A stretch of 64,000 bases of DNA from Streptomyces sp. NBC_01283 (GTDB taxonomy: Bacteria > Actinomycetota > Actinomycetes > Streptomycetales > Streptomycetaceae), in the NCBI RefSeq assembly GCF_041435335.1, contig NZ_CP108430.1, forward strand, positions 3,578,501-3,642,500, given 5' to 3'. Every line of letters starts with the position of its first letter. Positions within the stretch are counted from its first letter, which is position 1. The notes beneath the pieces were generated by a model. That model had not been told where the DNA came from and made no database searches. It was given only the letters and a program-made list of their open reading frames with translations. Positions 3,632 to 38,787 of this stretch are shown here, in pieces. The translations under genes were made by a program, and so were the position numbers.

Positions 3632-3670
3632 GAGGCGGGGTCGGGTCCTTCCAGGGCCCGGCCCCGCCTC
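3632..3670. terminator. bidirectional terminator
   Basis: A 17-bp stem with two G-U pairs (GAGGCGGGGTCGGGTCC opposite its near complement) and a 5-base loop between two convergent genes. Confidence 0.8.
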
Positions 3671-4694
3671 ACGGCATGGTGGCCACGACCGACGCGTACG
3701 AGAGACCCGCGCCGTAGCCGAGCAGCAGGGCCGTGTCGCCGGGCTTCGCCTCGCCCGACGCGAGTACCGCGTCCATGGCGAGCGGAATGGAAGCGCCCGA
3801 GGTATTGCCGGAGGTCACGATGTCCTTGGCCACCCGCACGCCGTCCGGCAGGCCGATGCGCTTCGCCATCGCGTCGATGATGCGGACGTTGGCCTGGTGC
3901 GGGATGAAGACGTCGAGGTCGGCGGGGGTGATGCCCGCGGCCTCCAGTGCCTGTGCGGCGACCTCGGCCATCTCGTAGACGGCCCAGCGGAAGACCCGCT
4001 GCCCTTCCTGCCGCATCCACGGGAACTCCTCGCCGGGCGCGCCCCTGAGCACGTCCCACGGGGCCGTCTGCTCGATGGCGTCCGCCTGGGAACCGTCAGC
4101 TCCCCAGACCGCCGGGCCGATGGCGGGCGTCTCGGAGGGACCGATCACCACGGCGCCCGCTCCGTCCCCGAAGATGAAGGCGGTCGAGCGGTCCTTGAGG
4201 TTCAGCAGATCGGTCATCCGCTCCACGCCGACCACCAGGACATGGCCGCCGCGACTGCGGACCGCGTCCGCCGCGAGCACCACGCCGTGCACGAACCCGG
4301 CACAGCCCGCCGACACGTCGAAGGCCGCCGCTCCCCGGGCGCCGACGCGGTGGGCGATGTCCGTCGCGACGGCCGGAGTCTGCTTGAGGTAGGTGAAGGT
4401 CGCGGCGATGACGCAGGTGATGTCGGCCGGAGTGATGCCCGCCGCCGCGATGGCCTTGGCCCCGGCCTCCTCGGCCATCACCGCCAGGGTCTCGTCGGGG
4501 CCGGCCCAGCGCCGGGTGTGGATGCCCGTGCGGGCGCGGATCCATTCGTCCGACGAGTCGATCTGGCGGGACGCCTCTTCGTTGTCGACGATCCGTCGCG
4601 GGCGGTACGTCCCCACGCCCATGATCCGTGCGAAGCGGGCGCCCTGTGACGTGCTCAGGGTCGGACTCGCCGTCGGGCTCGGTGTCGGGCTCAT
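3669..4694 (-). CDS. 3-oxoacyl-ACP synthase III (FabH-like)
   Basis: A 341-residue KAS III with the complete catalytic triad: C131 in VSAGCAGFVHG, H266 in IPHQAN and N297 in SGNTSGASIP. Enzymes of this type condense an acyl-CoA starter with malonyl-ACP, or act in related acyl transfers in secondary metabolism. It is translationally coupled to the upstream DUF6875 gene (ATGA overlap at 4691-4694). It has a low-complexity Ser/Thr/Pro N-terminus of about 18 residues that housekeeping FabH lacks. No acyltransferase or fabD/fabF neighbours are present, so it is a dedicated cluster enzyme rather than the fatty acid synthase copy. Its place in the pathway is inferred. Confidence 0.9.
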   Translation of the reverse strand: MSPTPSPTASPTLSTSQGARFARIMGVGTYRPRRIVDNEEASRQIDSSDEWIRARTGIHTRRWAGPDETLAVMAEEAGAKAIAAAGITPADITCVIAATFTYLKQTPAVATDIAHRVGARGAAAFDVSAGCAGFVHGVVLAADAVRSRGGHVLVVGVERMTDLLNLKDRSTAFIFGDGAGAVVIGPSETPAIGPAVWGADGSQADAIEQTAPWDVLRGAPGEEFPWMRQEGQRVFRWAVYEMAEVAAQALEAAGITPADLDVFIPHQANVRIIDAMAKRIGLPDGVRVAKDIVTSGNTSGASIPLAMDAVLASGEAKPGDTALLLGYGAGLSYASVVATMP

Positions 4695-5353
4695 GCGGTG
4701 CCCCACTTGTCCCGGGCCTCGGCGAAGGCCTCGGCGAACATCGGGTCGGCCACCGAGCCCCGTTCGTGCCTGCCTCCGTACCGCTCCTCGTAGGCGGCGA
4801 ACCACTCGGGGTCCGAGTCGAGGAACAGGACGTCGTGGAAGGCCATCCAGCGCATGGCCAGCATCGGCACCGGCGAGCGCGACACCTCGAACTCCGGGTT
4901 GCGCGCGGCGCGTTCGTCGCAGGCCGGGTGGAACTGCGCCAGCATCAGGCCACGGCCCACCAGCTCGGGCTTGGCGAGCGTGTGTGCCTCGTCGAGCAGG
5001 CGGTGGCTGCCCTCGGGGAGTCCCGTGAGGACCAGGACGAGGGTGTGCAGGACGCGGTTGCGGCCCTCCCAGCGCGTGGCCTCGAAGGCCTCGGCCATCC
5101 GGCGCACGAGCTCGACCATTCCTTCGGCGTCGACGTCCGGGTCGACCGGCCACTCCTCGATGCGGAAACTCTGCGCCTTCATCGAGGATTCGACGAACGG
5201 GCAGACGGCGCCCTCCCGGTTGATACGCTCGTGCGGCCGCATGATGAACTCTTCTATCCACTGCCGCCCCCGTTCCAGAGGCGGTGCGGCCGAGCGGTCC
5301 GGTGTGTCCGCCCTCCCGTACTGCGGAGTGACGGCCGATGCCGACGGGCTCAT
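4691..5353 (-). CDS. DUF6875-like protein
   Basis: A 220-residue soluble protein. The block AVCPFVESSMKAQSFRIEEW (about residues 49-68) matches my recollection of the DUF6875 family, which occurs in actinobacterial secondary-metabolite clusters and has no known reaction. The remainder is a mixed alpha/beta domain with conserved-looking FHPACDER and WMAFHDVLFL segments. Cysteines C51 and C144 and several His could be functional. The ATG at 5353 has GGAGGG upstream. It is the first gene of a two-gene unit with the KAS III downstream, joined by ATGA overlap, which suggests the two proteins act together. The family call is tentative. Confidence 0.6.
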   Translation of the reverse strand: MSPSASAVTPQYGRADTPDRSAAPPLERGRQWIEEFIMRPHERINREGAVCPFVESSMKAQSFRIEEWPVDPDVDAEGMVELVRRMAEAFEATRWEGRNRVLHTLVLVLTGLPEGSHRLLDEAHTLAKPELVGRGLMLAQFHPACDERAARNPEFEVSRSPVPMLAMRWMAFHDVLFLDSDPEWFAAYEERYGGRHERGSVADPMFAEAFAEARDKWGTA

Positions 5354-5527
5354 GAGGGTTCCCTCCGTGATTCAGGACGCACTGAACCGCCACCCGGACT
5401 CGCGTGACGCAGAGGGGTGTCGAGGTCGCCGTGCGACCAGCGGTTCAGCTCGTACGGTTGTGGTCTTGGCCGGTCAACTCTCGTCAGGGTGTGGCGTGTT
5501 CAGGGGCGCGTGACGGGCCGGCGGATC
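5354..5527. promoter_or_regulatory. intergenic region upstream of DUF6875-KAS III unit
   Basis: A 174-base gap between the hemerythrin stop and the start of the leftward DUF6875 gene. There is no convincing hairpin or gene. It probably holds a promoter for the two-gene unit, since it is far longer than the other gaps in this arm. Confidence 0.4.
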
Positions 5528-6169
5528 TCAGTAGTTGTCGCCGAAGGCAGCGCGCTGCCGCTTCTCCAGCCAGCCGCTGAACAGCCGCCCGATCGGCGCC
5601 GCCGCGACGCCGCCCTGCTCCCCCGGTCCGGCCACGGAGAGGAGCCAGGCCGGCATGAAGCGCAGCGTCCAGCCGGGGGCCGTCTTGCGCATGTGGGTCG
5701 CGAAGCCCTTCCAGATCTGCTTGCCGAGGGCCGGGGCGAGCCGGCCGAGCAGCTCGCGCTCCTCGTCGCCCGCGTGTCCGGCGAGCTGTTCGCGCACCTC
5801 CTTTGTGCGTGTGGCCAGTTCCGCCGCGACCGCGGGGTCCGTGCCGAGTCGTCTGCTCGTCTCGTGCCAGGTGTGCAGGACCTTCGCCAGCTCTTCGTGC
5901 TCGGCGGTCATGAGGGCCAAGGCCTCCTGGTCCGCGCCCAGTTCACGCAGCCGGGGCCAGAGGAAGTCGTCCTCGCCCTCGTGGTGGTGCTCGATCACCT
6001 GGAACAGCTTGTCCACGTAGTCCAGGAGGGCGGCGGCCTGTGCGGCATCGGGCGTACGGGCCAGCTGCTCGGCGCTGCGGGCGACGCGGTCGAGGTCGCG
6101 CACCATGGCACGGTGGGCCAGCAGCATCGTCTGGTGGCCCGAGGGCAGGTGGGCGATGGACTCGGTCAT
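5528..6169 (-). CDS. hemerythrin HHE-domain protein
   Basis: A 213-residue protein with the hemerythrin HHE cation-binding four-helix fold. Candidate di-iron ligands are visible in order: H12 (SGHQTM), H19, H61-H63 with E64 and E66 (EHHHEGEDDF), H90/E91, H99 and H131/E135. Family members bind O2, NO or peroxide or sense iron. The start ATG at 6169 has AAGGAG upstream. It is the last gene of the long leftward arm, 64 bases after the acyl-CoA dehydrogenase gene. It may simply be a passenger, or it may protect or assist the oxygen-dependent desaturase and oxidase. I cannot choose from the sequence. Confidence 0.8.
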   Translation of the reverse strand: MTESIAHLPSGHQTMLLAHRAMVRDLDRVARSAEQLARTPDAAQAAALLDYVDKLFQVIEHHHEGEDDFLWPRLRELGADQEALALMTAEHEELAKVLHTWHETSRRLGTDPAVAAELATRTKEVREQLAGHAGDEERELLGRLAPALGKQIWKGFATHMRKTAPGWTLRFMPAWLLSVAGPGEQGGVAAAPIGRLFSGWLEKRQRAAFGDNY

Positions 6170-6233
6170 GAATGACGCTCCTTACAGGTCGACGGCGGGC
6201 TGTTCAGGTGTCCGCCCGCCGGGTACTCCGGGT

Positions 6234-8072
6234 TCACCAGGCCTCGTCCGGCACGGTCATGAGCACCGTGTCCGTGCACTCCGCGACGGAACGTTCCGCG
6301 GTCAGCAGCGGAAGCACCTCCTGGGCGAAGAACCTGGCTGTTGCGATCTTGCCTCGGTAGAAGGCCGCATCGGGGGCGTTCAGGCCATCCGGCCGCTCCG
6401 CCAGCCTCGACTCGGCCACCGCGGCCTGGCGGAGCAGGAGCCAGCCGACGAGCACGTCGCCCGCCGCCATCAGGAGCCTGGTCGTGTTCCGCCCCACCTG
6501 GTACATCGCCGTGGATTCCTCGAAGGACCGCAGCAGGTGTCCGCCCATGACGTCGACGACGGCCCGAAGTTGCGTGACGGCGTCGGCCAACTGGGCGTGT
6601 GCTGCGGCGAGTTCCCCGTCCGTCACGGCGGCGGCGGTCTTCTCCACCTCGGTCAGGAGCGCTCCGAGCGCGGCACCCTGGTCCTTCGCGACCTTGCGGA
6701 AGAAGAAGTCGAGGCCCTGGATCGCCGTGGTCCCCTCGTACAGCGTGTCGATCTTGGTGTCGCGGATGTACTGCTCCAGCGGGAAGTCCTTGAGATAGCC
6801 GGCGCCGCCGAAGATCTGGAGGGCGTGGCCCAGCTGCTCGCAGGCGCGCTCCGAGCTGTAGCCCTTGACGATGGGGAGCAGCAGGTCGTTGAGCGCCTTC
6901 GCCTCCTCGTCCGTTCCGCCCGCGGCCTCGGCCTCGGCGATCCGGTCCTGCACCGTCGCGGTGTGCAGGACCAGGGCGCGCAGCCCTTCGGCGTACCCCT
7001 TCTGCAGGAGCAGGGAGCGCCGGACCTCGGGGTGGCGGGTGATGGGGACCTTCGGCGCCGACTTGTCCCCGAAGGCCGCGAGATCCGTGCCCTGCAGGCG
7101 TTCCTTGGCGTACGCGACCGCGTTCAGATAACCGGTGGAGAGGGTGGCCGCCGACTTGGTGCCGACGATCATCCGGGCCTGCTCGATGACCTGGAACATC
7201 TGCCGTATGCCGTCGTGGACGTCGCCGAGGAGCACGCCGACGGCGGGCCGCTCGGCTCCGAAGGTGAGCTCGCAGGTGGCCGAGGACTTCAGGCCCATCT
7301 TCTCTTCGAGCGAGGTGGCGAACACGCCGTTGCGCTCGCCGAGCCGACCCGTCGTGGCGTCGGCGACATGGAACTTCGGCACCAGGAAGAGGGAGAGGCC
7401 CTTCGTTCCCGGTTTGTGGCCCTCGGGTCTGGCGAGCACGAAGTGGACGATGTTCTCGGCCAGGTCGTGCTCGCCGGAGGTGATGAACCGCTTGACCCCC
7501 TCGATGTGCCAGCTGCCGTCCGGCTGCTGGACCGCCTTGGTCCGGCAGGCCCCCACGTCGCTGCCCGCGTCCGGCTCGGTGAGCACCATGGTGGCGCCCC
7601 ACTGCCGGTCGACCATGAGGCGGGCGAGCCCGCGCTGTTCCGGGGTGCCGAGCCGGTCGAGGATCTTCGCGAAGCCCGCGAGTCCTTGGTAGAGGTAGAG
7701 CGACGGGTTGGCGCCGAGTGCGAGCTCGGCGACGGCCCAGCGCAGCGACGGCGGCACGTCGGCGCCGCCCAGGGAGGAGGGCAGGTCGAGCAGGTGCCAG
7801 CCGGACTCCATCCAGGTGCCGTACGCCTGCTTGAAGGAGTCGGGCAGCGTGACCGAACGGGTCGCCGGGTCGTAGCGGGGCGGGGTGCGGTCGGCCTCGA
7901 CGAAGGGGCCCGCCAGTTCGTGCACGGCGAGCCGCTCCACCTCGGCCAGGATGCCGCGCGCGGTGTCACGGCCCGTCGCCTCGAAGGCGCCCCTGCCGTA
8001 CGTCCGCTCGCAGCCGAGGACCTCGAAGAGGTTGAACTCCAGGTCCCGCAGGTTCGACTTGTAGTGGCTCAT
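6234..8072 (-). CDS. acyl-CoA dehydrogenase (long form)
   Basis: A 612-residue flavoprotein of the long acyl-CoA dehydrogenase type (FadE5-like, about 600 residues) with the N-terminal, middle beta and C-terminal helical domains plus an extra C-terminal helical region. The FAD/substrate motif VLTEPDAGSDVGA lies near residue 165 and the catalytic glutamate is in LYEGTTAIQG near residue 450. It introduces an alpha,beta double bond into an acyl thioester. It is 43 bases downstream of the aminotransferase gene in the long leftward operon. In this setting it may desaturate an ACP- or CoA-bound acyl chain before reduction and amination, as TamP is thought to do for tambjamine. That parallel is inference. 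Confidence 0.9.
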   Translation of the reverse strand: MSHYKSNLRDLEFNLFEVLGCERTYGRGAFEATGRDTARGILAEVERLAVHELAGPFVEADRTPPRYDPATRSVTLPDSFKQAYGTWMESGWHLLDLPSSLGGADVPPSLRWAVAELALGANPSLYLYQGLAGFAKILDRLGTPEQRGLARLMVDRQWGATMVLTEPDAGSDVGACRTKAVQQPDGSWHIEGVKRFITSGEHDLAENIVHFVLARPEGHKPGTKGLSLFLVPKFHVADATTGRLGERNGVFATSLEEKMGLKSSATCELTFGAERPAVGVLLGDVHDGIRQMFQVIEQARMIVGTKSAATLSTGYLNAVAYAKERLQGTDLAAFGDKSAPKVPITRHPEVRRSLLLQKGYAEGLRALVLHTATVQDRIAEAEAAGGTDEEAKALNDLLLPIVKGYSSERACEQLGHALQIFGGAGYLKDFPLEQYIRDTKIDTLYEGTTAIQGLDFFFRKVAKDQGAALGALLTEVEKTAAAVTDGELAAAHAQLADAVTQLRAVVDVMGGHLLRSFEESTAMYQVGRNTTRLLMAAGDVLVGWLLLRQAAVAESRLAERPDGLNAPDAAFYRGKIATARFFAQEVLPLLTAERSVAECTDTVLMTVPDEAW

Positions 8073-8115
8073 GACGCGCTCCCTCGCTCCTTCTCGGCGA
8101 TCGTGGGCCGGTGGG

Positions 8116-9222
8116 TCAGTGGTGTTCGAGCAGGGCGGTGAGCGCCGTGGCGAGGCGCTCCACCTCGTCGACGGTCCCGACGGAGATCCGCAGGTAGCCG
8201 GGGAGCCCGAGCACGTCGAGGTTGCGCACGAAGATGCGGTGCTCGGCGGCGAGCCGGGCCGCGAACGCCACGCTGTCGCCGGGGGCCGTCCCCTCCCCCG
8301 GCGCCCCCGGCACCTTCACCATCACGAAGTTGGTGACGGACGGGGCGTGTTCGATGTTCAGGTTGTCCAGGGACTTGCAGAGAAGCTCCCTGGCCTGGGC
8401 GTTGTCCGCGCGTACCCGTTCGATGTGCTCGGGCTGTTCGAGGGCGCGCAGCACGGCCCGCTGAGCGGGACGGTTGACGTTGAAGGGCAGGGCGCCCGCG
8501 ACGGCGTTGATCCGTCCGATGAGGTCCTGGGGGCCGATGACGAGCCCCACGCGGACCGAGGCGAGTCCCCATGCCTTGGAGAAGGTGCGGGTCACCAGGA
8601 TGCGGCGGCCCTTGCGCACCTCGTCGAGGGCGAACTCGTGGGCCTGGCCCGCGAAGTCCATGTACGCCTCGTCGAAGACGAGGACCGTCCCGCTGCGCTC
8701 CGCCGCGTCGATGAGCCGCGTCACGCCCGCCCGGTCGAGCACCGCCCCGGTGGGGTTGAGCGGGTTGCAGACGAAGGCGAGTTCGGCCCCCTGCTCCATC
8801 GCGGCCACGACCCCCTCGACCGGGATCGACGCGTCCCGCAGCGGCACGGTGCGCGCCCGCGCCCCGACGGCCGCGGCGGACACCACGTAACCGGGGAAGG
8901 TGGTGGCGGTGGTGACGACCGAGGCGCCGGGCTCGCGCAGGAACGCCATCGAGGTGACGAGGACCAGTTCGTCGGTGCCGTTGCCGACCGCGATCATGTC
9001 GGGGGTGACCCCGAAGTGGCCGGCGAGCCTGGCGCGGAGTTCGGCGCACTCGCTGTCGGGGTAGCGGTTGAGGTAGCTCGCCGCCTCCGCCCGCACGGCG
9101 TCGACGGTTCCGGGCGGCGGGCCGTACGGGTTCTCGTTGAGGTGCAGTCGCAGATGGTCCTCCCTGCCGACGATCTCGGTGTCGGCGAAGAAGCCCGGCG
9201 GTGGAGCCTGGACCTGGGGCAT
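8116..9222 (-). CDS. class I/II aminotransferase, HisC-like
   Basis: A 368-residue PLP enzyme of the histidinol-phosphate aminotransferase group. Key positions are visible: N-terminal HLNENPYGPP (27-36), N153-G159 NPLNPTG, D184 and Y187 in FDEAYMDF, and the PLP lysine K216 in TRTFSKAWGL. The ATG at 9222 is preceded by AAGGGA. HisC itself normally sits in a his operon; here the neighbours are lipid genes, so a specialised substrate such as an aldehyde or keto acyl chain is likely. Together with the thioester-reductase-like gene at 14498-15514 it could make a long-chain amine. Substrate is not readable from the sequence. Confidence 0.88.
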   Translation of the reverse strand: MPQVQAPPPGFFADTEIVGREDHLRLHLNENPYGPPPGTVDAVRAEAASYLNRYPDSECAELRARLAGHFGVTPDMIAVGNGTDELVLVTSMAFLREPGASVVTTATTFPGYVVSAAAVGARARTVPLRDASIPVEGVVAAMEQGAELAFVCNPLNPTGAVLDRAGVTRLIDAAERSGTVLVFDEAYMDFAGQAHEFALDEVRKGRRILVTRTFSKAWGLASVRVGLVIGPQDLIGRINAVAGALPFNVNRPAQRAVLRALEQPEHIERVRADNAQARELLCKSLDNLNIEHAPSVTNFVMVKVPGAPGEGTAPGDSVAFAARLAAEHRIFVRNLDVLGLPGYLRISVGTVDEVERLATALTALLEHH

Positions 9223-9278
9223 GGTGGATCCCTTCTCGTACGGTGTCGCCGGGCAGGCCGCCCGACCGGCCTCTCGGG

Positions 9279-10928
9279 TCAGCCCAGTTGGACGCGGGCT
9301 ATCGTCTGCAGCTGGCCGGCGTCGCCGCCGAGCAGGGCCCGGCAGCGGAACCGCTGGATCTTGCCGCTGGGCGTCCTGGGCAGATGGCCGCGCTCCACGA
9401 AGACGCACTCGGAGAGCGCGATGCCCGACTTCTCCCTGGCCACGGCGGCGGCCTGGTCGGCGATGAGCGCGAAGTCGGCGCTCTTGCGCGTGGGTTCGAG
9501 GAGCAGGACCAGCTTGGAGACGCCGCCGCCGGCCATGTCGACGAGTGCCGAGCAGCCCTTGCGGACCGGCCCCATCGCCTCCACCGCCGATTCGATCTCA
9601 CTGGTGTAGACGTTGCGTCCGCCCACCGAGATCAGGTCGTCGGCCCGGCCGACGAAGTACACCTCGCCGTCGTGGACGAAGCCCAGGTCACCGGTGTGCA
9701 GGAGGCCGTCGTGGAAGCGCTCCGCGGTGCGCTCGGCGTCGTTGAGGTAGCCGGAGGCCAGACTCGGCGAGTCGACGCGGAGCTCGGAGACACGCTCCGG
9801 GTCCTTGGTGGTCACCGTGACGCCGGGCAGCGGCGGCCCGTTGGAGACGAGCCGGGTGGCGCCCGGCGCGTCCTCGGGGACCTCGACGATCCGGCCGTCG
9901 AGCAGCGCGGGCCCGTCGAAGCTGCGGGTGACGGGGACCGCGCCCAGCGGGGTGCAGGAGACCGCGAGGGTCGCCTCGGCCATTCCGTACGCGGGCATGA
10001 ACGCCGTGGCCTTCAGGCCCGAGGGGCCGAACGCGGCGACGGTGGCCTCCAGGGTCTCCCAGTCGACCCGTTCGGCGCCCACCACGCAGACGTTCAGGGC
10101 GAGTTGCCTGGGCAGCTGGTTGCGGCCCTGGGCGCGGGCGGCCAGGTGCAGGGCGGTGTTGGTGCCCGCGGTCATGGTCGCGCCGTACTCGGACATGTCG
10201 CGGAACCAGGTGCGCGGTGCCATGCCGAACCGCTCGGGCGACGACAGGACGAAGTCGTAGTCGAACGCCCAGGCGTGCAGCATGGTGCCGAAGATGCCCA
10301 TGTCGTGCGAGAGCGGCAGCCAGGAGGCGATCGTCTCGGCGCCGGGGCGCCCGCCGGTCATCTCGTGCAGCATGTGCAGATGGGTGCCGATGGCCCTGGT
10401 GCTGAGCTCGCAGCCCTTGGGCAGGCTGGTGCTGCCCGACGAGTACTGGATGAAGGCGGTCTCCTCGGCGCCCGGCGGCGACGGGTCGAAGCCCTGGTCG
10501 CTGTACAGGGACGTCCAGTTGAGCACCGGGAGCCGCGCCGCGAGCTCGACGGGGACGAGCGGCGCCAGGCCCTCGTCGATGAGGAGCACCGTGGGGCCGA
10601 GGCGTTCGGTGAGCACGCCGAGCTGGGCCCCGTACTCCTGCGGGCTCTGGCCGCGGGCGGGCAGCGGGAAGGAGGCGACGGCCCCGCCGGCCAGCCAGAT
10701 CGCGAGGAGTCCGCGCAGGGTGTGCGCCGAGTTGGTCAGGACGGTGGCGACCCGGCTGCCGGGCCGCACGCCGGCGGCGCGGAGGGTCGCGGCCATGCCG
10801 TGGGCGTCGGCGACGACCTCGCTCCACGGCATGTGCCCGAAGCCTTCGTCCTCCTGCCAGTGGTGCAGGACTCCGTGGGAATCGTCGCGCAGGAGGAGGT
10901 CCCAGAGTCCGGTGCCGGTGGTTGCCAT
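9279..10928 (-). CDS. fatty acyl-AMP ligase
   Basis: A 549-residue adenylate-forming enzyme. The P-loop-like A3 motif IQYSSGSTSLPKG lies near residue 175, the A5-type motif PAYGMAEATL near 340, HTGDLGFVHDGEVYFVGR near 425, and the A10 lysine is intact in TPSGKIQR near 520. The pattern SSGST together with a long insertion after the adenylation core fits FAAL proteins, which adenylate a fatty acid and load it on an ACP rather than on CoA. The likely partner is the ACP encoded at 17727-17975 in the same arm. The start at 10928 lies two bases after the desaturase stop, so the two are coupled. FAAL versus CoA ligase cannot be fully settled by eye. Confidence 0.87.
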   Translation of the reverse strand: MATTGTGLWDLLLRDDSHGVLHHWQEDEGFGHMPWSEVVADAHGMAATLRAAGVRPGSRVATVLTNSAHTLRGLLAIWLAGGAVASFPLPARGQSPQEYGAQLGVLTERLGPTVLLIDEGLAPLVPVELAARLPVLNWTSLYSDQGFDPSPPGAEETAFIQYSSGSTSLPKGCELSTRAIGTHLHMLHEMTGGRPGAETIASWLPLSHDMGIFGTMLHAWAFDYDFVLSSPERFGMAPRTWFRDMSEYGATMTAGTNTALHLAARAQGRNQLPRQLALNVCVVGAERVDWETLEATVAAFGPSGLKATAFMPAYGMAEATLAVSCTPLGAVPVTRSFDGPALLDGRIVEVPEDAPGATRLVSNGPPLPGVTVTTKDPERVSELRVDSPSLASGYLNDAERTAERFHDGLLHTGDLGFVHDGEVYFVGRADDLISVGGRNVYTSEIESAVEAMGPVRKGCSALVDMAGGGVSKLVLLLEPTRKSADFALIADQAAAVAREKSGIALSECVFVERGHLPRTPSGKIQRFRCRALLGGDAGQLQTIARVQLG

Positions 10929-10930
10929 GG

Positions 10931-11941: not shown

Positions 11942-11994
11942 TTCTTCTCTTCCCCTTGCTGTGGTTGGTCTTCGGCGTCGGGCACCTGAGGGCG

Positions 11995-13473: not shown

Positions 13474-13525
13474 ATGCCTTCTCCTGTTCGCCGAGCTGTG
13501 TGGGGGTGTTCCGGTGGGTCGGAGG

Positions 13526-14476: not shown

Positions 14477-14497
14477 GGTTGCGTCCTTCCTGACTCT

Positions 14498-17730: not shown

Positions 17731-17975
17731 GCGGCGGCGGCCGTCTGGGTGGACTCGACCAGCTTGACCAGGTCGCCGACGGTCTTCACGTTCGCCGCCT
17801 GGCTCGGGTCGAGCTCGATCTCCGCGTCGTCCTCGACGGTGTAGACGATGTCGGCGATCTGCAGGCTGGAGAGACCCACCGAGTCGAAGGCCGTGTCGGC
17901 ACCGAGCGTGAGGCCCGACGCCTTGTTGCCGAGCTTCTTCGCTATGAGGGCGCAGACGGTTTCAACGGTGATCAC
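17727..17975 (-). CDS. acyl carrier protein
   Basis: An 82-residue four-helix carrier protein. The phosphopantetheine serine is in VGLSSLQIAD (the GLDSL motif with Asp replaced by Ser). The acidic helix VEDDAEIELD follows. The GTG at 17975 is preceded by AAGGA nine bases upstream. As first gene of the long leftward arm, coupled to the methyltransferase, it is the probable carrier for the acyl chain activated by the FAAL and modified by the desaturase and methyltransferase. The cluster also encodes a phosphopantetheinyl transferase to activate it. Confidence 0.93.
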   Translation of the reverse strand: MITVETVCALIAKKLGNKASGLTLGADTAFDSVGLSSLQIADIVYTVEDDAEIELDPSQAANVKTVGDLVKLVESTQTAAAA

Positions 17976-23560: not shown

Positions 23561-23563
23561 TGG

Positions 23564-26711: not shown

Positions 26712-26763
26712 GTCCGCTCTCCCTCGTGTGGTTCCCCGCAACCCCAACCGGTGAGTCCGTGTC

Positions 26764-29007: not shown

Positions 29008-29039
29008 GCGTGATCACCTTCGGAGTTCGGGAGTACGGG

Positions 29040-29078
29040 GGCGGAGGCCGGCGCCGGGGGGTGGTTCCGGCCTCCGCC
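29040..29078. terminator. terminator of the peptide-side leftward operon
   Basis: A 12-bp perfect stem GGCGGAGGCCGG/CCGGCCTCCGCC with a 15-base loop, after the TauD gene and before the MMPL start. Confidence 0.75.
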
Positions 29079-29110
29079 GGTAGGGTGCGCCGCCGCTCGG
29101 GCGGCGCGGA

Positions 29111-31635: not shown

Positions 31636-32272
31636 GGGTCAGCTCCGTTCGGTTCCGGGAGAGCAGGCGGATGTCGACGGAGTCGAGTGCGTAGCGTTCG
31701 ACCCCCGTGACCAGCTGCTGGGAGTGCTCGGCCAGGCGGCCCCAGCGGACCGCGGGCCGCTGGTCGTAGAAGGTTCCCCAGCGGGCCAGTTCCTCGGCGC
31801 CCAGGCGGGTGCCGTCGGCGTCGCACAGCCGGTGGGTGATGAGGCCGAGGCGCTTCGCGAGCGCCGCGGACCGGTTGGTCATCGTCATGGCGGCGTACGA
31901 CCGGCCCAGACAGGCCTGGATCAGCGGAAGCGCGCGGTAGATCTCCGCGCCCGCCAGGTTCGCGACCGAGGCGACGCTGCCGAGCTGGACGATCTGGTGC
32001 CGCCGCACGTCCTGTCCCGCCGCCTCGCGCAGCGCGTCCTCGAGTGGTTCGTCCAGGTACCGCTCCAGGAAGACCGGTCCGTTCTCCGGGAAGGAGATCC
32101 CGATGCAGGCCTCCACCTCGTCGGGGCCGCCGTCCTGCCGTCCTACGTACGCGATGAACTGATCCGGATCCGGGGTCACCTGGGCCCCGAAACTCGTCCC
32201 GAACACCTTGCTGACCAGCGATGCGGATTCCAGCCAGACCGGCGTCCCCCGCCGGGCGATCACTATCTTCAC
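31625..32272 (-). CDS. thermostable hemolysin family protein, possible acyltransferase
   Basis: A 215-residue protein resembling the thermostable hemolysin family (named after Vibrio proteins). As I recall, that family belongs to the N-acetyltransferase-like fold group. Blocks seen are ACIGISFPENGPVFLERYLDEPLE near 66-89, QIVQLGSVASVANLAG near 105-120, and MTNRSAALAKRLGLI near 145. The GTG at 32272 is chosen because AAGGA lies nine bases upstream; the frame is open to 32326 but overlaps the thioesterase gene. It has no signal peptide, so a secreted toxin is unlikely. Between an AMP-ligase and a thioesterase gene, a GNAT-like acyltransferase role is a reasonable inference. Confidence 0.72.
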   Translation of the reverse strand: MKIVIARRGTPVWLESASLVSKVFGTSFGAQVTPDPDQFIAYVGRQDGGPDEVEACIGISFPENGPVFLERYLDEPLEDALREAAGQDVRRHQIVQLGSVASVANLAGAEIYRALPLIQACLGRSYAAMTMTNRSAALAKRLGLITHRLCDADGTRLGAEELARWGTFYDQRPAVRWGRLAEHSQQLVTGVERYALDSVDIRLLSRNRTELTRAA

Positions 32273-32297
32273 GTTCCGTGTTCCTTTCGAGAATGGA

Positions 32298-33098
32298 TTA
32301 CTCGGCCGGTACGGCACCGAACTCACGCAGCACCACGGCGAGTTCTTCCAGCAAGGCGCTTTCCTGGGAGCGGACGAAGAAGTGTCCGCCCGGCATCGTG
32401 CGCAGCTCGGCCCCCCTGCTTCCGTGCTCCGACCAGGCGGCCATCTTGTGGACCGGTACCAGCCGGTCCTGCTCCCCCACGAACAGGCGCAGAGGCACCC
32501 GCAGCGGTTCGATCTCGTTCTCTTTCACCACCCCCGAGCAGAGCTTGAGATCGTCCCGGACCAGTGGCATGAACCGCTGACGGAATCTGCGCCGGGCGGC
32601 CAGCTCGGGCGGAATTCCGCCCAGTCCGGCCAGGCTCGTGGCCAGTTCCTCGTCGTCCGCCGCCGGGTCCAGGATCCGGTTGGGCGGTATGTGGGGTGCG
32701 CGGTGGGAGCTGAGGACGAGCGCCCGCGGCAGTGCGGCACCCCGCCGCTGTCTGCGCAGGGTCAGTGCGTGGGCGATGAACGCCCCCATGCTGTGTCCGT
32801 AGAGCAGGTGGGGGCGCGACAACGCGTCGTCCAGCTGCTCGTCCATCTCCTCCACCAGCGCGTCCAGGTCGGTGAACCGCGTCTCGTGGGCGCGCTCCTC
32901 ACGGCCCGGCGGCTGCACCGGCCGCACCTGGACTCCCGCGCCGCGCACATCGAGCTCCCGCTGCCACCGTGCGTAGGAGGACGCGCCGCCGCCCGCACAG
33001 GGCAGGCAGAACAGAGTCGGCCCCGCGGCGGCGGCGGTGCGTGCCGGCTGCGGCAGATACGGCGTCTCGGTGACCCTCATGGACACCGAAGATTCCAT
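32298..33098 (-). CDS. type II thioesterase
   Basis: An alpha/beta hydrolase of about 266 residues of the RifR/GrsT type II thioesterase family. It shows TLFCLPCAGGGASSYARW near the start, PPGREER, the nucleophile motif YGHSMGAFIAH, the catalytic Asp region LRLFVGEQDRLVP and the His in MPGGHFFV. It removes wrong or stalled acyl groups from carrier proteins or releases products. The start is uncertain: ATG at 33098, ATG at 33080 and GTG at 33176 are all in frame and none has a good ribosome site. It is the first gene of the four-gene leftward operon, divergent from the precursor peptide. Confidence 0.88.
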   Translation of the reverse strand: MESSVSMRVTETPYLPQPARTAAAAGPTLFCLPCAGGGASSYARWQRELDVRGAGVQVRPVQPPGREERAHETRFTDLDALVEEMDEQLDDALSRPHLLYGHSMGAFIAHALTLRRQRRGAALPRALVLSSHRAPHIPPNRILDPAADDEELATSLAGLGGIPPELAARRRFRQRFMPLVRDDLKLCSGVVKENEIEPLRVPLRLFVGEQDRLVPVHKMAAWSEHGSRGAELRTMPGGHFFVRSQESALLEELAVVLREFGAVPAE

Positions 33099-33424
33099 TC
33101 GGGCAGGGGCTGGAAACAGTGGGTGCGTACCGGCGTTCGGGGTGGGTTTCTCTGCCCCGGGATGTGACCACGTCACACCCGTGAAGAAATCACAACGCCG
33201 GAATCGAATCCTCCAGAAGACCGCCTGCCATTCGGCGGAGCAAAGGTGAAGGGAAGTTTCCGATTACCGCGGTGCCGCTGGGGCCGGCGGGGGGTGAAAT
33301 ACGAAGGTGACGCATGGGAAAGTCTCACCCCCCACTGATGAGCCCTTCACTTTCTGCGGGCGCTTCCCCGTATGAGGATCCTGTCAACGGAGAACGCCTC
33401 CCCAGACCGAAAAGGAACGTGCTG
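33099..33424. promoter_or_regulatory. divergent promoter region of the peptide locus
   Basis: A 326-base region between the thioesterase and precursor genes, with local AT-rich stretches (33181-33260). It should hold both promoters. It contains a 9-bp inverted repeat GGGGGGTGA (33289-33297) and TCACCCCCC (33325-33333) around a 27-base loop, which could be an attenuator or a binding site for the regulators. Confidence 0.5.
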
Positions 33425-33604
33425 ATGATCGAGATCATTGCCGGCGCACTCACGCTCCCCACCACCGCGGACAGCCACACCTCCGCGCGTCCCGCACTCG
33501 TCGTGGACCACCTCGACGCGGGCGCCGACGACTCGGTGGCGCTGTTCACCTTCTGCACCCTCATGCCCGGCACGAGCACGGTCAACGAGCTCTCCCACGC
33601 ATGA
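33425..33604 (+). CDS. candidate azoline-peptide (RiPP) precursor
   Basis: A 59-residue peptide. The ATG at 33425 is preceded by AAAAGGA eight bases upstream, and its stop overlaps the ATG of the fused cyclodehydratase gene (ATGA), so the two are translationally coupled. The N-terminal 40 residues look like a leader, with the hydrophobic/acidic segment ALVVDHLDAGADDSVAL expected for docking to a recognition element. The C-terminal core is FTFCTLMPGTSTVNELSHA: one Cys (C44) and hydroxyl residues T42, T45, T50, S51, T52, S57 that could become thiazoline or (methyl)oxazolines. There is no obvious Gly-Gly or Ala-rich cleavage site and no dedicated protease. The precursor call rests on position, coupling and residue make-up. 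Confidence 0.8.
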   Translation: MIEIIAGALTLPTTADSHTSARPALVVDHLDAGADDSVALFTFCTLMPGTSTVNELSHA

Positions 33605-35895
33605 CGGTCACGGGGGAAGAGACCGCGTTCGTAGAGTTCAAGAGCCACCTGCGCTGCGCGGTCGTCCCCGGAGAAGCGGCCTATCTGGTATCGCACTCCG
33701 GGATCACGGCCCTGCGCGGGGCGCAGGCGGAGGCGCTGGCCCCGCTGCTCGACGGGACCCGCACCCCGGCCGCCATCGCCCGCGCCGCCGCTTCCTCCCT
33801 GACCTCCGAGGAGGTCGGCGACGCGCTGCGGGTCCTCGCCGACGCCGGGCTGCTCCGCTTCCAGCGGCAGCCCGGCAGATCCCCGGCCGACCGGGCCGCG
33901 GAGGCCTACTGGGACCTCGCGGGCCTCGACGGTGCCCGTGCCACCGAGGAGGCGGCACGGGCGGCCGTGCGGATCGTGGTGCTCGCCGGGAGCGCGGACC
34001 CGGCGGCCGAGGTCCCGGTCCGCGAGGCCTGTGCGGCCTCGGGCCTGCGGATCACGGAATCGGCGGATGAGGCCTGCCTCAGCCTCGTCCTGTGCGACGA
34101 CTACCTCTCTCCCGGCCTGCGCGAGGTGGACGCCGAGCACCGGGCTACGGGGCGCCCCTGGCTCCTCGTACGCCTGGGCGGTCCCGAGCCGTGGTTCGGG
34201 CCGGTGTTCCGCCCGGACGACGGGCCCTGCTGGTCGTGTCTGGCGACCCGGCTGCGCGGCCACCGCACCACCGAACTGCCCCTGCAGCGCGCGCTGCGCC
34301 TGGACCACCCGGTGGCCAGACCGGCCGCGGACCTGCCCACCGGGCGGGCGCTGGCCGTACAGGCCGCGGTCCTGGAGGCGGTCAAGTGGGCCAGCGGCCT
34401 TCGCAGTCCGGAACAGAGCACCGTACGCACCCTGAACACCCTCACGCTGCAGACCGCCACCCACCCGGTTTCCCGCCTCCCGCAGTGCGCGGAGTGCGGC
34501 GACCCGGCGCTCATGAGCGAGCGCGGCTGGCGGCCCACGGAACCGCGCAGCCGCCCGAAGTCGGCGGACGGCACGGGCGGCGGCCACCGCGCACTCGGCA
34601 CCGCGCGGATGCTGCAGCGCTACGGCCACCTGGTCGGCCCGGTCACGGGCGTGGTGAAGGAGATCCGCCGGGCTCCCGGCTCCCCCGACTTCACCCAGGC
34701 CTATGTGTCGGGCCAGAACCTCGCCATGGAGGCCAGCACCCTGTCCGGACTGCGCGCCGGGCTCCGTTCGCTCAGCGGCGGCAAGGGCCTGACCGCCGAG
34801 GAGGCGAAGGTCAGCGCGCTCGGCGAGGCCATCGAGCGGTACAGCGGGACCCGGCGCGGCGACGAGGCAGTGGTGCGCGACACCTTCCGCGGCCTCGGCG
34901 AGGTGGCCCTGCACCCCAACTCCTGCCAGCTGTACGACGACCGGCAGTTCCGCGACCGGTCCCACTGGAACGCGGCCCGCTCGCCCTTCACCCACGTACC
35001 GGAACGCTTCGAAGAGAACCGCCCCGTCGACTGGACCCCCCTGTGGTCCCTGGCCACGGGCACGCACCGGCTTCTTCCGACGAGCATGCTGTACTTCCCC
35101 AGCGACACGGTGGCCGCGCACGAGCCGATCGCCGACTCGAACGGCAACGCGGCGGGCAGCAGCTTCGAGGACGCCGTGCTCCAGGGCTTCCTGGAGCTGG
35201 TCGAACGCGACGCCGTGGCCCTGTGGTGGTACAACCGCACGCGCCAGCCGGGCATCGACCTGCGGTCCTTCGCCGAGCCCTACATCGACCAACTGAGCGA
35301 TGGGTACCGCCGGTTGAACCGCGAGATCTGGGCGCTCGACCTCACGGCCGACCTCGGCATCCCCGTCGTCGCGGCCTTCTCCCGGCGCACCGACAAACCG
35401 TCCGAGGACATCATCTTCGGCTTCGGCGCCCACCTCGATCCCCGCATCGCACTGCGCCGGGCGCTGACCGAGATGGGGCAGCTCCTCCCCGCCGTCTCCG
35501 GCGCGCGTCCCGACGGCTCGGGCTACCGCGTCGACCAGCCGGAAGCCATGCACTGGTGGCTGCGCGAGACGACGGCCAGCCAGACCTACGTGACGCCCGC
35601 AACCGACGCGTCACCCCGCGCGCCCCACTCCTGGTCCTACACCGCGCGGGGCGACCTGCGGGACGACCTCTCGGCGGCCACCGGCCTGCTCGCCTCGCAC
35701 GGCATGGATCTGCTCGTACTCGACCAGACCCGCCCCGACATCGGGCTCCCCGTGGTCAAGGTCGTCGTTCCCGGACTGAGGCACTTCTGGGCGCGATACG
35801 CACCCGGACGCCTCTACGACGTGCCCGTCGCACTCGGCAGGCTCGCGGAACCGACGCCGTACGAGGAACTCAACCCGATCCCGCTGTTCGTCTGA
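33601..35895 (+). CDS. fused azoline cyclodehydratase (ThiF-like C domain + YcaO D domain)
   Basis: A 764-residue protein that should bind the precursor leader and turn Cys/Ser/Thr into azolines with ATP. Residues 1-90 look like a winged-helix recognition element (EALAPLLDGTRTPAAIARAA). Residues 110-320 form a ThiF/E1-like domain with two CxxC pairs, C210/C213 (CWSC) and C296/C299 (CAEC), the zinc tetrad of TruD/LynD-type proteins. From about 330 a YcaO domain has the ATP/Mg motifs SALGEAIERYSG near 405 and LELVERDAVALWWYNRT near 530. It ends in ELNPIPLFV, matching the proline-rich C-terminus of azoline-forming YcaO proteins. No dehydrogenase gene with an FMN domain follows. Confidence 0.93.
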   Translation: MTVTGEETAFVEFKSHLRCAVVPGEAAYLVSHSGITALRGAQAEALAPLLDGTRTPAAIARAAASSLTSEEVGDALRVLADAGLLRFQRQPGRSPADRAAEAYWDLAGLDGARATEEAARAAVRIVVLAGSADPAAEVPVREACAASGLRITESADEACLSLVLCDDYLSPGLREVDAEHRATGRPWLLVRLGGPEPWFGPVFRPDDGPCWSCLATRLRGHRTTELPLQRALRLDHPVARPAADLPTGRALAVQAAVLEAVKWASGLRSPEQSTVRTLNTLTLQTATHPVSRLPQCAECGDPALMSERGWRPTEPRSRPKSADGTGGGHRALGTARMLQRYGHLVGPVTGVVKEIRRAPGSPDFTQAYVSGQNLAMEASTLSGLRAGLRSLSGGKGLTAEEAKVSALGEAIERYSGTRRGDEAVVRDTFRGLGEVALHPNSCQLYDDRQFRDRSHWNAARSPFTHVPERFEENRPVDWTPLWSLATGTHRLLPTSMLYFPSDTVAAHEPIADSNGNAAGSSFEDAVLQGFLELVERDAVALWWYNRTRQPGIDLRSFAEPYIDQLSDGYRRLNREIWALDLTADLGIPVVAAFSRRTDKPSEDIIFGFGAHLDPRIALRRALTEMGQLLPAVSGARPDGSGYRVDQPEAMHWWLRETTASQTYVTPATDASPRAPHSWSYTARGDLRDDLSAATGLLASHGMDLLVLDQTRPDIGLPVVKVVVPGLRHFWARYAPGRLYDVPVALGRLAEPTPYEELNPIPLFV

Positions 35896-36165: not shown

Positions 36166-37407
36166 ATGCACAGCGACACCAAGGACACGTCTGACGTGAC
36201 CGGTTCCCGATGGAGCCCTCGGCCCGCCCCCCGGCTGGCCCACGTCATCCTGTTGGCGGCGCTCATCTGCTATCTCGGCATCACCGCGATCAATCTGCTG
36301 AGCCAAGGGCCTTCGACGCCCGAACTCATCACCGGTCTCGTCACGCTCTCCGCCGTATTCGGCCTGCAACTCCTGCATTCAAGGCCCGGAGCCGACCGCG
36401 CCGCACCCTGGTCGAAGGCCGCGACCCTGGGCGCGCAGGCCCTGCTGACCTATCTGCCCCTGGCCTTCTTCGGCATCCTGTGGGGGGCGATGGCGGGCTT
36501 CCTCGGCGGATCGCTGCTGCTCCTGCTGCCGCCCCGGGCGGCCTGGCCGCTCTACGGGGTGACCGGGCTGAGCCTGCTGATCCCGGGGATCATCGGCGGA
36601 ATGTCCGTGGTCGACCTCGTCTACATGTGCCAGAGCACCCTGCTCACCGGCCTGGTGGTCTACGGCCTGTCCCGGCTCTCGTCCCTCGTCGAGGAGGTGT
36701 ACGCCGCCCGCGCCGAGATAGCCAGGATGGCGGTCGCCAGCGAACGCCTGCGGCTTGCAAGGGACTTGCACGACCTCCTGGGCTACAGCATCTCGGCGAT
36801 CGTGCTCAAGAGCGAGCTCCTGCAGCGGCTGGTCCGGGCCCAGCACCCCCGCGCCGACCAGGAGGTGGAGGAGGTCCTCGCCATCTCCCGGCAGGCGCTG
36901 AGCGACGTGCGCCGGGTGGCCCGCAGCTACCGCGACATGTCGCTCGTCTCCGAGGTCTCGTCGGCCAAGTCGGTGCTCGACGCCGCGGAGGTCGAGGTCG
37001 AGGTGGTCCTCGCCCCGGCCATCGAGAAGATCAGTTCGCAGGCCGGCACGGCGCTCGCCACCGTCCTGCGCGAGGGCGTCACCAATCTGCTGCGCCACAG
37101 CAAGGCTTCGCACTGCAACATCACCGCGGTGGTCGACGACGGAACGGCACGGCTCACCATCATCAACGACGGTGTGGTGGAGAACTATCACGATCCCTCG
37201 CCGGACAGCGGAAACGGCCTCGGCAACCTGAAACAGCGGCTCGACGAGCTCGGCGGGCGGCTGATCACCGAACGCGAGAAGGAGATACCCCCGGCCTGCG
37301 GGGGCTGGTTCCGGCTCGTCGCCGAGTTGCCCGCGCAGGCCGTCGGCCGAAACAGTGCGGAACAATCCCAGAAAATCGGGCGAATAAATCCGAATGGCGT
37401 GTTCTAG
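36166..37407 (+). CDS. sensor histidine kinase, DesK/NarX-like
   Basis: A 413-residue kinase. Five to six hydrophobic helices fill residues 24-175, with no large external sensor domain, so it probably senses within the membrane. A coiled linker leads to the HisKA_3 dimerisation box ASERLRLARDLHDLLGYSI with the phospho-acceptor His in DLHDLLG near residue 202. The ATPase domain shows LREGVTNLLRHSKASHCNI (N box) and GNGLGNLKQRLDELGG (G box). The ATG at 36166 has AGGAG ten bases upstream. The paired regulator follows after 69 bases. A lipid-sensing role would suit the cluster but is inference. Confidence 0.9.
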   Translation: MHSDTKDTSDVTGSRWSPRPAPRLAHVILLAALICYLGITAINLLSQGPSTPELITGLVTLSAVFGLQLLHSRPGADRAAPWSKAATLGAQALLTYLPLAFFGILWGAMAGFLGGSLLLLLPPRAAWPLYGVTGLSLLIPGIIGGMSVVDLVYMCQSTLLTGLVVYGLSRLSSLVEEVYAARAEIARMAVASERLRLARDLHDLLGYSISAIVLKSELLQRLVRAQHPRADQEVEEVLAISRQALSDVRRVARSYRDMSLVSEVSSAKSVLDAAEVEVEVVLAPAIEKISSQAGTALATVLREGVTNLLRHSKASHCNITAVVDDGTARLTIINDGVVENYHDPSPDSGNGLGNLKQRLDELGGRLITEREKEIPPACGGWFRLVAELPAQAVGRNSAEQSQKIGRINPNGVF

Positions 37408-37476
37408 TCGGCTGATAACATGTGGCCGCGAGCAACAACGGGGGTTCGCGATACGGGTAATCATGGGGGGCTATCG

Positions 37477-38082
37477 ATGATCCGTGTAATGCTCGCTGAG
37501 GATATGCAGATGCTGAGAGGCGCATTGGTCGCCTTGTTGAATCTCGAACATGACCTGGATGTCGTGGCCAGCGTGGAACGCGGCGACGAGATTCTCTCCA
37601 CGGCCCGCGAGTTCCAGCCTGACGTCGCCATCATCGACATCGATCTTCCGGGCCTCGACGGCCTGAGCGCGGCGGAACAACTGCACGAACGGCTGCCGCA
37701 GTGCCGCACCTTGATCCTCACCAGCCTCGGCCGCCCCGGCACACTGCGCCGCGCGATGTCCGCCAAGGTCTCCGGATACCTGCTCAAGGACGCCCCGCCG
37801 CAGGAACTCGCCCAGGCGGTAAGGAAAGTGGCGGCGGGCCAGCGGGTCATCGACTCCGAACTGGCGCTGGCCGCGTGGGGCAGCGCGGACAGCCCGCTCA
37901 CCTCCCGCGAGACCGAGGTGCTGCGCCTCACGTCACAGGGTTCGGACGCCGGCGAGATAGCGAAGCGGCTGCGCCTGTCGGTGGGGACCGTACGGAACTA
38001 TCTGACCACCGTGGTGACCAAGCTCAACGCCCGCAACAGGGTGGACGCGATCCGCATCGCGAATGACTCCGGGTGGCTGTGA
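37477..38082 (+). CDS. NarL/FixJ-family response regulator
   Basis: A 201-residue regulator. The receiver domain (1-118) has acidic E8/D9, phospho-acceptor D54 in AIIDIDLPG, T83 region LILTSLGRPG and K103 region YLLKDAPP. The LuxR-type DNA-binding domain covers about 140-200 (LTSRETEVLRLTSQGSDAGE). The ATG at 37477 follows a G-rich ribosome site. It is the partner of the kinase just upstream and lies between the cyclodehydratase and the SagB-N-like gene, so it probably controls the peptide locus. Confidence 0.92.
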   Translation: MIRVMLAEDMQMLRGALVALLNLEHDLDVVASVERGDEILSTAREFQPDVAIIDIDLPGLDGLSAAEQLHERLPQCRTLILTSLGRPGTLRRAMSAKVSGYLLKDAPPQELAQAVRKVAAGQRVIDSELALAAWGSADSPLTSRETEVLRLTSQGSDAGEIAKRLRLSVGTVRNYLTTVVTKLNARNRVDAIRIANDSGWL

Positions 38083-38122
38083 GGCCGCGCTCCACCATGA
38101 GCGGTATCGGGAAGCGGTGTCC

Positions 38123-38140
38123 GGGGGCCGTCAGGCCCCT
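38123..38140. terminator. weak hairpin between convergent genes
   Basis: A 6-bp GC stem (GGGGCC/GGCCCC) with a GTCA loop overlapping the stop of the minus-strand gene. Weak but well placed between the response regulator and the next gene. Confidence 0.45.
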
Positions 38141-38787
38141 GGCTGGGCAGCCACTCCCGCCGCCGCGAGGTAGCACAGGATGCCCTCCGTCACGTCGGCG
38201 GGCAGCGGCAGCACGGCGGTGATGGCCCGCAGCGTCACGGGACGGGCGAGGGCGAGGGCGAAGACCATCATGGCCTCCTGCCGGTGGATGACCAGGCGGT
38301 GCGAGGCCGTACGGGACTCAAAGACGGCCGTGAGCGGGTCGAACGCGAAGGAGAGGCCGAGGAAGAGCCGGATGGGTTCCAACTGATCCAGGGGTACGAC
38401 GGTCAGGGAGGCCCCGCTCGCCTCGGGCAGGGGCGCGAACGAGAGCAGCGGACTGCTCAGTCCGTCGAGCGCGAGGGTGCGGACCAGCAGGTGGGGAAAG
38501 CGCCCGAACACCGGCCGCATCATGACGTAGACCTTCGCGTCCCGGTCCCGGCCCCCTTCGCCGTCGTCCAGCAGCGCGTTGCCGAGCAGCACCGGACCCA
38601 GTTGCATGCGCCGGAGTACTTCGAGGACGGTCGGCTCCGGGCACGCCAGGCGGGCGGTGCCCTGGTCCCAGGTGAGCACCAGGGACCCCGTGACCGCGTC
38701 GGACTCGACCTCCACGTCCTCGCGCAACGACCAGAGATGCCGGAGCCGTCCACCAGGCAGCTCCAGCAGGTCGATCGTGGCCTCCAT
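38131..38787 (-). CDS. protein resembling the N-terminal part of SagB-type dehydrogenases
   Basis: A 218-residue cytoplasmic protein. It starts with a winged-helix-like section (LWSLREDVEVESDAVTGSLV, residues 18-37) and ends with a second one, in which HRQEAMMVFALALARPVTL (about residue 169 on) runs on through PLPADVTEGILCYLAAAGVA (about 194-213). This arrangement recalls the region that precedes the FMN nitroreductase domain in actinobacterial SagB-like azoline dehydrogenases and related RiPP recognition proteins. No flavin domain follows. The ATG at 38787 has GAGGAG upstream. It could be a stand-alone recognition or scaffold protein for the peptide pathway, or unrelated. The resemblance is by eye only. 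Confidence 0.45.
   Translation of the reverse strand: MEATIDLLELPGGRLRHLWSLREDVEVESDAVTGSLVLTWDQGTARLACPEPTVLEVLRRMQLGPVLLGNALLDDGEGGRDRDAKVYVMMRPVFGRFPHLLVRTLALDGLSSPLLSFAPLPEASGASLTVVPLDQLEPIRLFLGLSFAFDPLTAVFESRTASHRLVIHRQEAMMVFALALARPVTLRAITAVLPLPADVTEGILCYLAAAGVAAQPGA

Follow-up and report, generated by a model that had tools for sequence, protein, structure and literature searches.

Autoinducing ribosomally synthesized and post-translationally modified peptides (RiPPs) that work with two-component systems are represented by the nisin NisRK type, and lipolanthines, goadvionins, and selidamides are known as lipid-RiPP hybrids. Goadsporin is a Streptomyces azole RiPP that promotes secondary metabolism in actinomycetes at low concentration, and its clusters encode a fused cyclodehydratase, a B protein, and a dehydratase (PMC4603692). 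We analyzed a 64,000-nucleotide stretch of the genome of Streptomyces sp. NBC_01283 (C1:3578501-3642500 within a 9.59 Mb genome of five contigs; hereafter, the window), in which a set of lipid-pathway genes is found together with a YcaO-type azoline peptide module. An earlier note on this DNA had proposed that these two halves make one hybrid product. On balance, we lean toward reading the YcaO half as a portable regulatory cassette and not as the peptide part of a lipid-peptide hybrid.

The window module resembles the nisin NisRK type in that the precursor, modifying enzyme, histidine kinase, and response regulator are encoded together and that a common site, to which the regulator is predicted to bind, lies upstream of the precursor gene. 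It is unlike that type in having a YcaO enzyme instead of lanthipeptide enzymes, in sitting in clusters for unrelated products, and in lacking a generally shared exporter, protease, or immunity gene; the kinase also occurs without the peptide, and we infer the sensing step here. Unlike the goadsporin clusters, as described in a main text in which the terms "two-component" and "histidine kinase" have zero occurrences, the window module includes a kinase and its regulator and is found within other clusters. Among the literature titles listed, none dealt with a two-component system accompanying a YcaO peptide within other clusters. Cyanobactin-type LynD/TruD systems and other TOMM/azoline RiPPs share with the module a leader-binding domain fused to a SagD-type YcaO domain, conserved ATP-site residues, and a short precursor with a conserved leader. 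The module differs from them in its single short Cys-poor core and in its partners, which are a kinase, a response regulator, and cluster activators. In addition, the Pfam matches of 30 window open reading frames (ORFs) included no peptidase, and thus none of the PatA/PatG protease/macrocyclase type, the rest of the genome not being searched.

The window ORFs were scanned with Pfam and NCBIfam models. Rfam gave no match at gathering thresholds in the whole window. The putative precursor is a short ORF without a family match directly upstream of the YcaO gene (33425..33604, + strand). It encodes 59 amino acids with the leader motif LVVDHLD and the C-terminal sequence ALFTFCTLMPGTSTVNELSHA. The following gene (33601..35895, + strand) encodes a fused YcaO cyclodehydratase of the LynD/TruD type, assigned by family scans (TIGR03604, 282 bits; TIGR03882, 137 bits; SagD family with a fused leader-binding domain) and by its closest solved structures, LynD (E 3.7e-152) and TruD. 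Residues E409, E412, R413, E532, E535, R536, D537, E624, and Q627, which we take to represent the ATP-site motifs, and the zinc cysteines C210, C213, C296, and C299 were invariant in 81 of 81 sequences; position 405 was S in 49 and G in 32 of them. Azolines or azoles may form on the core. The same strand encodes a HisKA_3 histidine kinase in whose N-terminal part simple hydropathy marks three strongly hydrophobic segments (36166..37407) and a response regulator identified by family scans, with a receiver and a LuxR-type (GerE) DNA-binding domain (37420..38082).

Relatives of the module were compared in the best 80 of 163 confirmed YcaO relatives, a set biased to close relatives; most of the named relatives are Streptomyces. 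Many loci from approximately L005 to L031 are only partly annotated, and the context classification does not cover every locus. Family names rest on one representative each, and 28 were named (all except families 22 and 25) of the 30 families present in at least 5 of the 80 loci. By grouping of neighbors within the flanks examined, the YcaO gene was accompanied by the response regulator in 70 loci, the kinase in 68, a SARP-type gene in 40, a ThcOx-type dehydrogenase, as in TOMM/azoline RiPPs, in 23, and orf38 in 16. A looser tblastn rule found the kinase in 74 and the response regulator in 75, with neither in L009, L015, and L081. Mean pairwise identity was 39% in the sensor region of the kinase and 55% in its kinase region. 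A leader motif of the LVIEDL form was found by pattern upstream of YcaO in 53 of 78 loci and was not found in 25. After the motif, the 53 sequences contained one Cys (23 loci), two (20), three (6), or none (4), and the cores varied widely between groups of loci. Unlike these variable cores, eight loci (L055, L059, L060, L070, L072, L074, L075, and L078) have an alike, QPGTCICW-like core.

The biosynthetic contexts were diverse. Neighbors of YcaO include ketosynthase (KS), acyl carrier protein (ACP), acyltransferase, carboxyltransferase, fatty acyl-AMP ligase (FAAL), phosphopantetheinyl transferase (PPTase), and polyketide-cyclase genes, and type II polyketide synthase-like gene sets are among the contexts. 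Further neighbors are AfsA together with MFS and flavin enzymes, a nonribosomal peptide synthetase-type protein with tryptophan dioxygenase, NDP-sugar genes, and P450s. The context groups follow the YcaO tree, whose tip order was read by eye without the support values. Thus, the cassette seems to keep to one cluster for some time and yet to have been plugged into several kinds.

A tandem-dyad operator was recognized upstream of the precursor (33290..33356, + strand; position weight matrix core 33314-33355). The full operator consists of two or three RTGA-N5-TCAY-like dyads in 22-bp steps. Counted as a word pair, GGTGA-N6-CACTG was present upstream of YcaO in 35 of 79 loci, compared with at most five in two shuffled sets. 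A held-out matrix was seeded and trained on L037 and later loci alone (40 sites) and was used to scan each whole locus on both strands. Its best match lay upstream of YcaO in 33 of the 35 other loci, and the second-best match lay there in L007 and L014; L022, in which YcaO is at a contig end, was excluded. With a matrix from all loci, in which matches upstream of precursors arise partly by construction, the 80 loci contained 103 merged sites scoring above 10, namely 75 upstream of YcaO and 28 elsewhere. With the held-out matrix, the window operator scored 17.9 and the next-best window site −0.5. Another 33 YcaO stretches included 26 new ones, and a site was present in 21 of the 26.

The sites away from YcaO included copies at 15 of 16 orf38 genes, at one helix-turn-helix regulator gene, before three histidine kinase genes, and at some unnamed genes. 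Pathway activators were also among their neighbors: operator copies lay at SARPs away from the precursor in L053, L077, and L025 (shared with orf38) and at two genes read as LysR-type from their sequences (L055 and L060). In L007, the site is inside the SARP ORF as called, and it counts as upstream if the ORF starts later, as we think it does. A site was near the start of 33 of 44 SARP genes versus 61 of 885 other genes, a ratio inflated by shared descent and by SARPs that adjoin the precursor.

Within the window, the operator sits between the precursor operon and a divergent operon running from the thioesterase gene through the LuxR-type regulator gene to the PPTase gene. Exact RTGA-N5-TCAY dyads occur five times in the 64 kb: two upstream of the thioesterase operon (33164..33193, strand unassigned), a third within the operator of the precursor, a fourth upstream of orf38 (at 38873, in an operator-like dyad at 38860..38890, − strand), and the last in the gene for the AMP ligase. 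Of the two at the thioesterase operon, the first aligns with a counterpart in each of the two syntenic clusters described below. The places of these dyads, not their number, are suggestive.

orf38 (38131..38787, − strand), absent from both syntenic clusters, encodes an N-terminal-domain homologue of ThcOx/SagB-type dehydrogenases without the nitroreductase domain. Its homology to the N-terminal approximately 200 residues of ThcOx proteins (17 of 17 queries) and the absence of any locus with both suggest that orf38 is a dehydrogenase reduced to its N-terminal domain. The lone domain of the 16 loci (e.g. L013:14410-15051) is usually under its own operator copy and also occurs in a genome without YcaO (G051, locus L209); it is perhaps a scaffold or a regulator.

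We propose that the cassette consists of the short precursor, the cyanobactin-type heterocyclase, the membrane histidine kinase, the response regulator, and the tandem-dyad operator, with a dehydrogenase or orf38 added in many relatives. The response regulator would bind the operator and drive its own precursor-YcaO-kinase operon, and the same protein would drive the pathway activator of the host cluster, a SARP in many relatives. In the window, the regulated target would be the divergent thioesterase operon, which carries the LuxR-type regulator, and thereby the lipid cluster. The YcaO-modified peptide would most likely be the signal that the kinase reads, closing an autoinduction loop; failing that, it would be a small product under the same control.

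The distribution of the kinase-regulator pair bears on this proposal. In 199 genomes of the genus, the window genome among them, the module-type response regulator was found in 61, YcaO (E 1e-60) in 52, and both in 45. The regulator set was picked by eye from the match list with a cut near E 1e-72 (about 57% identity), and only 15 candidates per genome were scored for the regulator and 5 for YcaO, so both counts may be low. We examined 18 regulator stretches away from a YcaO, 17 from the 16 genomes without YcaO and one a second copy in G181. The histidine kinase was present in 17 of the 18 and a SARP in 11. Seven operator sites were detected: five genomes together supplied six, all at SARPs, and G051 supplied one at orf38. 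The constant core therefore seems to comprise kinase, regulator, site, and activator, with the peptide-YcaO part common yet removable. Their persistence without the peptide supports a regulatory role for the module.

Several observations weigh against the regulatory reading or narrow it. In 16 of the 61 regulator genomes, the kinase works without a YcaO peptide and may sense something else, which makes it less certain that the peptide always acts as the signal. Conversely, 7 of the 52 YcaO genomes have no module-type regulator at the chosen cut-off. No site above threshold was found in 11 of the 18 YcaO-distant stretches, including 5 of the 11 with a SARP, and no operator was found in 5 of 79 loci at training (L020 was later weak) or in 5 of the 26 new loci. 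L009 and L015 have strong operators but no kinase or regulator within 10 kb, with regulator relatives of 71-72% identity elsewhere in their genomes; L015 comes from S. cellulosae (G211), whose match coordinates coincide with those of G177 in the genus sample. The YcaO loci share descent, so that p-values are too small. In the window itself, shuffled sequences contained 2.1 exact dyads on average and up to five, the support at the thioesterase operon consists of short dyads only, and the orf38 site falls below the two-site matrix threshold. SARPs bind direct repeats 11 or 22 bp apart, and the tandem-dyad operator might instead be a SARP site; several loci with the operator have no SARP within the flanks examined. 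The 28 named neighbor families include no peptidase that could serve as a leader protease, and exporters are not general across the 80 loci (ABC ATPase in 7, MMPL in 8, MFS families in 5-7).

Some of these points would fit an independent RiPP under common control, an explanation that we consider unlikely but more probable than the other alternatives. Here, another cue would act on the kinase-regulator pair and switch on the lipid or other cluster together with a small azoline peptide that has an activity of its own, and the peptide would not be the kinase ligand. It is consistent with the kinase-regulator pairs with sites at SARPs in genomes lacking YcaO, with the diversity of the cores, and with there being no direct tie between peptide and kinase. 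The same lack of a protease family and of a generally shared exporter counts against it, as does the order of genes, since in most loci the precursor and YcaO genes separate the operator from the kinase gene.

If the regulatory cassette reading is extended to its relatives, they may constitute a widespread Streptomyces class of YcaO-modified peptide pheromones, each with its own variable azoline peptide and a co-encoded membrane kinase that reads it, and all with one conserved operator that leads to the SARP, LysR-type, or LuxR-type activator of the host cluster, whichever that is. We advance this extension tentatively. Under it, the kinase-only versions would be receivers without a signal of their own.

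The window cluster was mapped to two relatives. In S. diacarni, every mapped gene from DUF6875 (4691) to the response regulator (38082) is present in the same order, with 57-91% identity apart from the precursor. S. smyrnaeus has the same order except that the MMPL, TauD, AMP ligase, and T_hemolysin-family genes are missing as a single block. The gene content is thus more than chance, and the earlier view that the two halves belong together holds in the sense of a single syntenic unit in three species. KASIII-a (3669), orf38, and EF-G have no counterpart in either syntenic cluster, the sole cross-match being KASIII-a to KASIII-b at 26%. The conserved cluster therefore spans approximately 4691-38082, and the wider unit first proposed, 3669-38787, was dropped. 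Flanking DNA is common to the S. smyrnaeus and S. diacarni clusters, and the window flanks match neither, indicating another genomic location for the unit in the window genome. The adjoining EF-G gene (39288-41432) was also rejected as a self-resistance gene, as it is outside the conserved unit and the genome has five EF-G-like matches including itself, the next being 50% identical.

This synteny favors a hybrid molecule, in which a fatty acyl chain and the azoline peptide would be joined, perhaps through the T_hemolysin-family protein and the AMP ligase: both halves are kept together in three species at two genomic sites. In other genomes, too, FAAL is often near YcaO modules (19 of 80 loci), as is KS (20). 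Lipolanthines, goadvionins, and selidamides likewise have lipid and RiPP genes in one cluster. Unlike in those systems, no acyl-peptide coupling gene is kept with YcaO in all three syntenic clusters, and the halves are evolutionarily separable. The START-like lipid marker (E 1e-10) was found in 19 of the 199 genomes, and marker and YcaO co-occurred in 5, window genome included, against 4.96 expected. With the window genome excluded, 4 of 18 marker genomes had YcaO (4.64 expected; Fisher p 0.73), and in these four the two genes are on different contigs or 1.8 Mb apart. The genome co-occurrence check set out in the earlier note thus came out against a hybrid, the halves being distributed independently.

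Single clusters gave the same picture. The nearest relatives of the lipid half in the 199 genomes are in G113, where a 14 kb contig carries 11 syntenic genes, and in G051, which has six lipid genes with LuxR and thioesterase genes; neither genome, G113 being a draft of about 480 contigs, had a YcaO match at E 1e-30. The remaining 17 marker places keep the thiamine diphosphate (ThDP) enzyme, START-like, and KASIII-b genes together, with no YcaO in the stretch and no close FAAL. The S. smyrnaeus cluster, which was examined without a search of the rest of that genome, keeps YcaO without the T_hemolysin/AMP ligase block. Of the 199 genomes, 6 had a T_hemolysin match; all 6 contained the T_hemolysin, AMP ligase, and TauD triad, and 2 contained YcaO. 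This recurrence marks the T_hemolysin block as a third separable unit.

Conservation does not extend to the peptide core. The S. diacarni precursor is 47% identical to that of the window across three quarters of its length, and the C-termini are ALFTFCTLMPGTSTVNELSHA in the window, ALFSFTAVPTPFAEPALA in S. smyrnaeus, and ALFTFTATPAPGVEPAFA in S. diacarni; two of the three cores have no Cys and only Ser/Thr. The lipid-half enzymes are largely conserved where the precursor core is not: the identities of the 15 lipid-half proteins to those of the window are 72-89% in S. smyrnaeus and 70-91% in S. diacarni. After the tests of co-occurrence, synteny, block loss, and core conservation, and with YcaO modules lying beside unrelated gene sets, a hybrid product is not supported, and we consider it improbable. 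An equally doubtful explanation, that a free-standing YcaO RiPP locus merely happens to adjoin the lipid cluster in one lineage, would fit the chance-level co-occurrence and the shared flanks of the two relatives (G199 and G200), which may derive from one event. Evidence against it comes from the same unit with other flanks in the window genome, from the counterparts in all three clusters of the dyad upstream of the thioesterase operon, and from operator sites at pathway activators in other clusters.

The lipid half (4691..22930, strand unassigned), annotated with Pfam/NCBIfam, has the same order in the three species: DUF6875, hemerythrin-like, acyl-CoA dehydrogenase, aminotransferase, FAAL, MFS, SDR, thioester reductase, DAO oxidase, CFA-type methyltransferase, ACP, ThDP enzyme, START-like protein, KASIII-b, and flavin monooxygenase. 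Family scans located the acyl-CoA dehydrogenase-type protein at 6234-8072, FAAL at 9279..10930 (− strand, start approximate), the CFA/CMAS-type methyltransferase at 16837..17730 (− strand), the ThDP enzyme of the acetolactate-synthase superfamily at 18053..19957 (+ strand), and the KASIII-like enzyme KASIII-b at 20622..21647 (+ strand). The solved enzymes nearest to the ThDP enzyme are BbmA, the nearest chain, and CsmA. The lipid-half marker (19954..20625, + strand) has no Pfam match, and its designation as START-like is a guess. Beyond the lipid half, the scans identified the PPTase (23584..24444, − strand), a removable block of MMPL, TauD, AMP ligase, and T_hemolysin-family genes (26764..32326, − strand), and the thioesterase (32298..33176, − strand, likely start near 33080). 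The ORF called for the LuxR-family regulator, with an N-terminal AAA ATPase region (24351..26747, − strand), shares 94 bp with the PPTase ORF.

Most gene names given previously were borne out by Pfam/NCBIfam: FAAL, ACP, CFA-type methyltransferase, thioester-reductase-like NAD protein, class I/II aminotransferase, ThDP enzyme, two KASIII-type proteins, PPTase, LuxR-type regulator, MMPL, TauD, AMP ligase, thioesterase, and the fused YcaO. That list was mostly right, but it omitted the histidine kinase, response regulator, orf38, flavin oxidases, SDR, MFS, DUF6875, hemerythrin-like, and START-like proteins, and its desaturase is the acyl-CoA dehydrogenase-type protein. The protein previously offered as a GNAT-fold candidate matched the T_hemolysin family (PF12261); its two-sequence AlphaFold model had a mean pLDDT of 37 and was not used. 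No PDB sequence relative was found to E 1, with two designed chains at E ~3. This candidate lipid-peptide acyltransferase is present in the window and S. diacarni and absent from the S. smyrnaeus cluster.

From the enzyme families, FAAL would load a fatty acid onto the ACP, and the dehydrogenase and methyltransferase would alter the ACP-bound chain. The thioester reductase would then release an aldehyde, the ThDP/KASIII enzymes would form a C-C bond, and the aminotransferase would add nitrogen. We infer that the lipid half separately makes such an activated and altered fatty acid, reduced, extended by the ThDP/KASIII enzymes, and aminated. This putative route resembles the logic of tambjamine and prodigiosin side-chain formation.

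Recurring arrangements were also observed. The sub-cluster of ThDP, START-like, and KASIII genes (window 18053-21647; L085-L101), often with an aminotransferase match, is present in 19 of 199 genomes (~10%). The T_hemolysin/AMP ligase/TauD triad (window 29111-32326; L193-L199) appears to be a small conserved pathway, and in G074 (C2, L193-L195) it lies approximately 33 kb from a YcaO module on a 297 kb contig. A translation-factor-type GTPase (GTP_EFTU and eEF1A_C, perhaps CysN-like) directly precedes the precursor region in four loci (L055:7994-9571).

If the regulatory cassette reading is correct, a common switch recognizable from its sequence would stand beside biosynthetic clusters in many Streptomyces, given YcaO in 52 of 199 genomes, and some of these clusters are perhaps silent in culture. 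The operator would reveal the activator that is controlled, and the precursor would supply a candidate inducer peptide for each cluster. It would also caution genome miners against drawing hybrid structures from a YcaO peptide inside a lipid or polyketide cluster.

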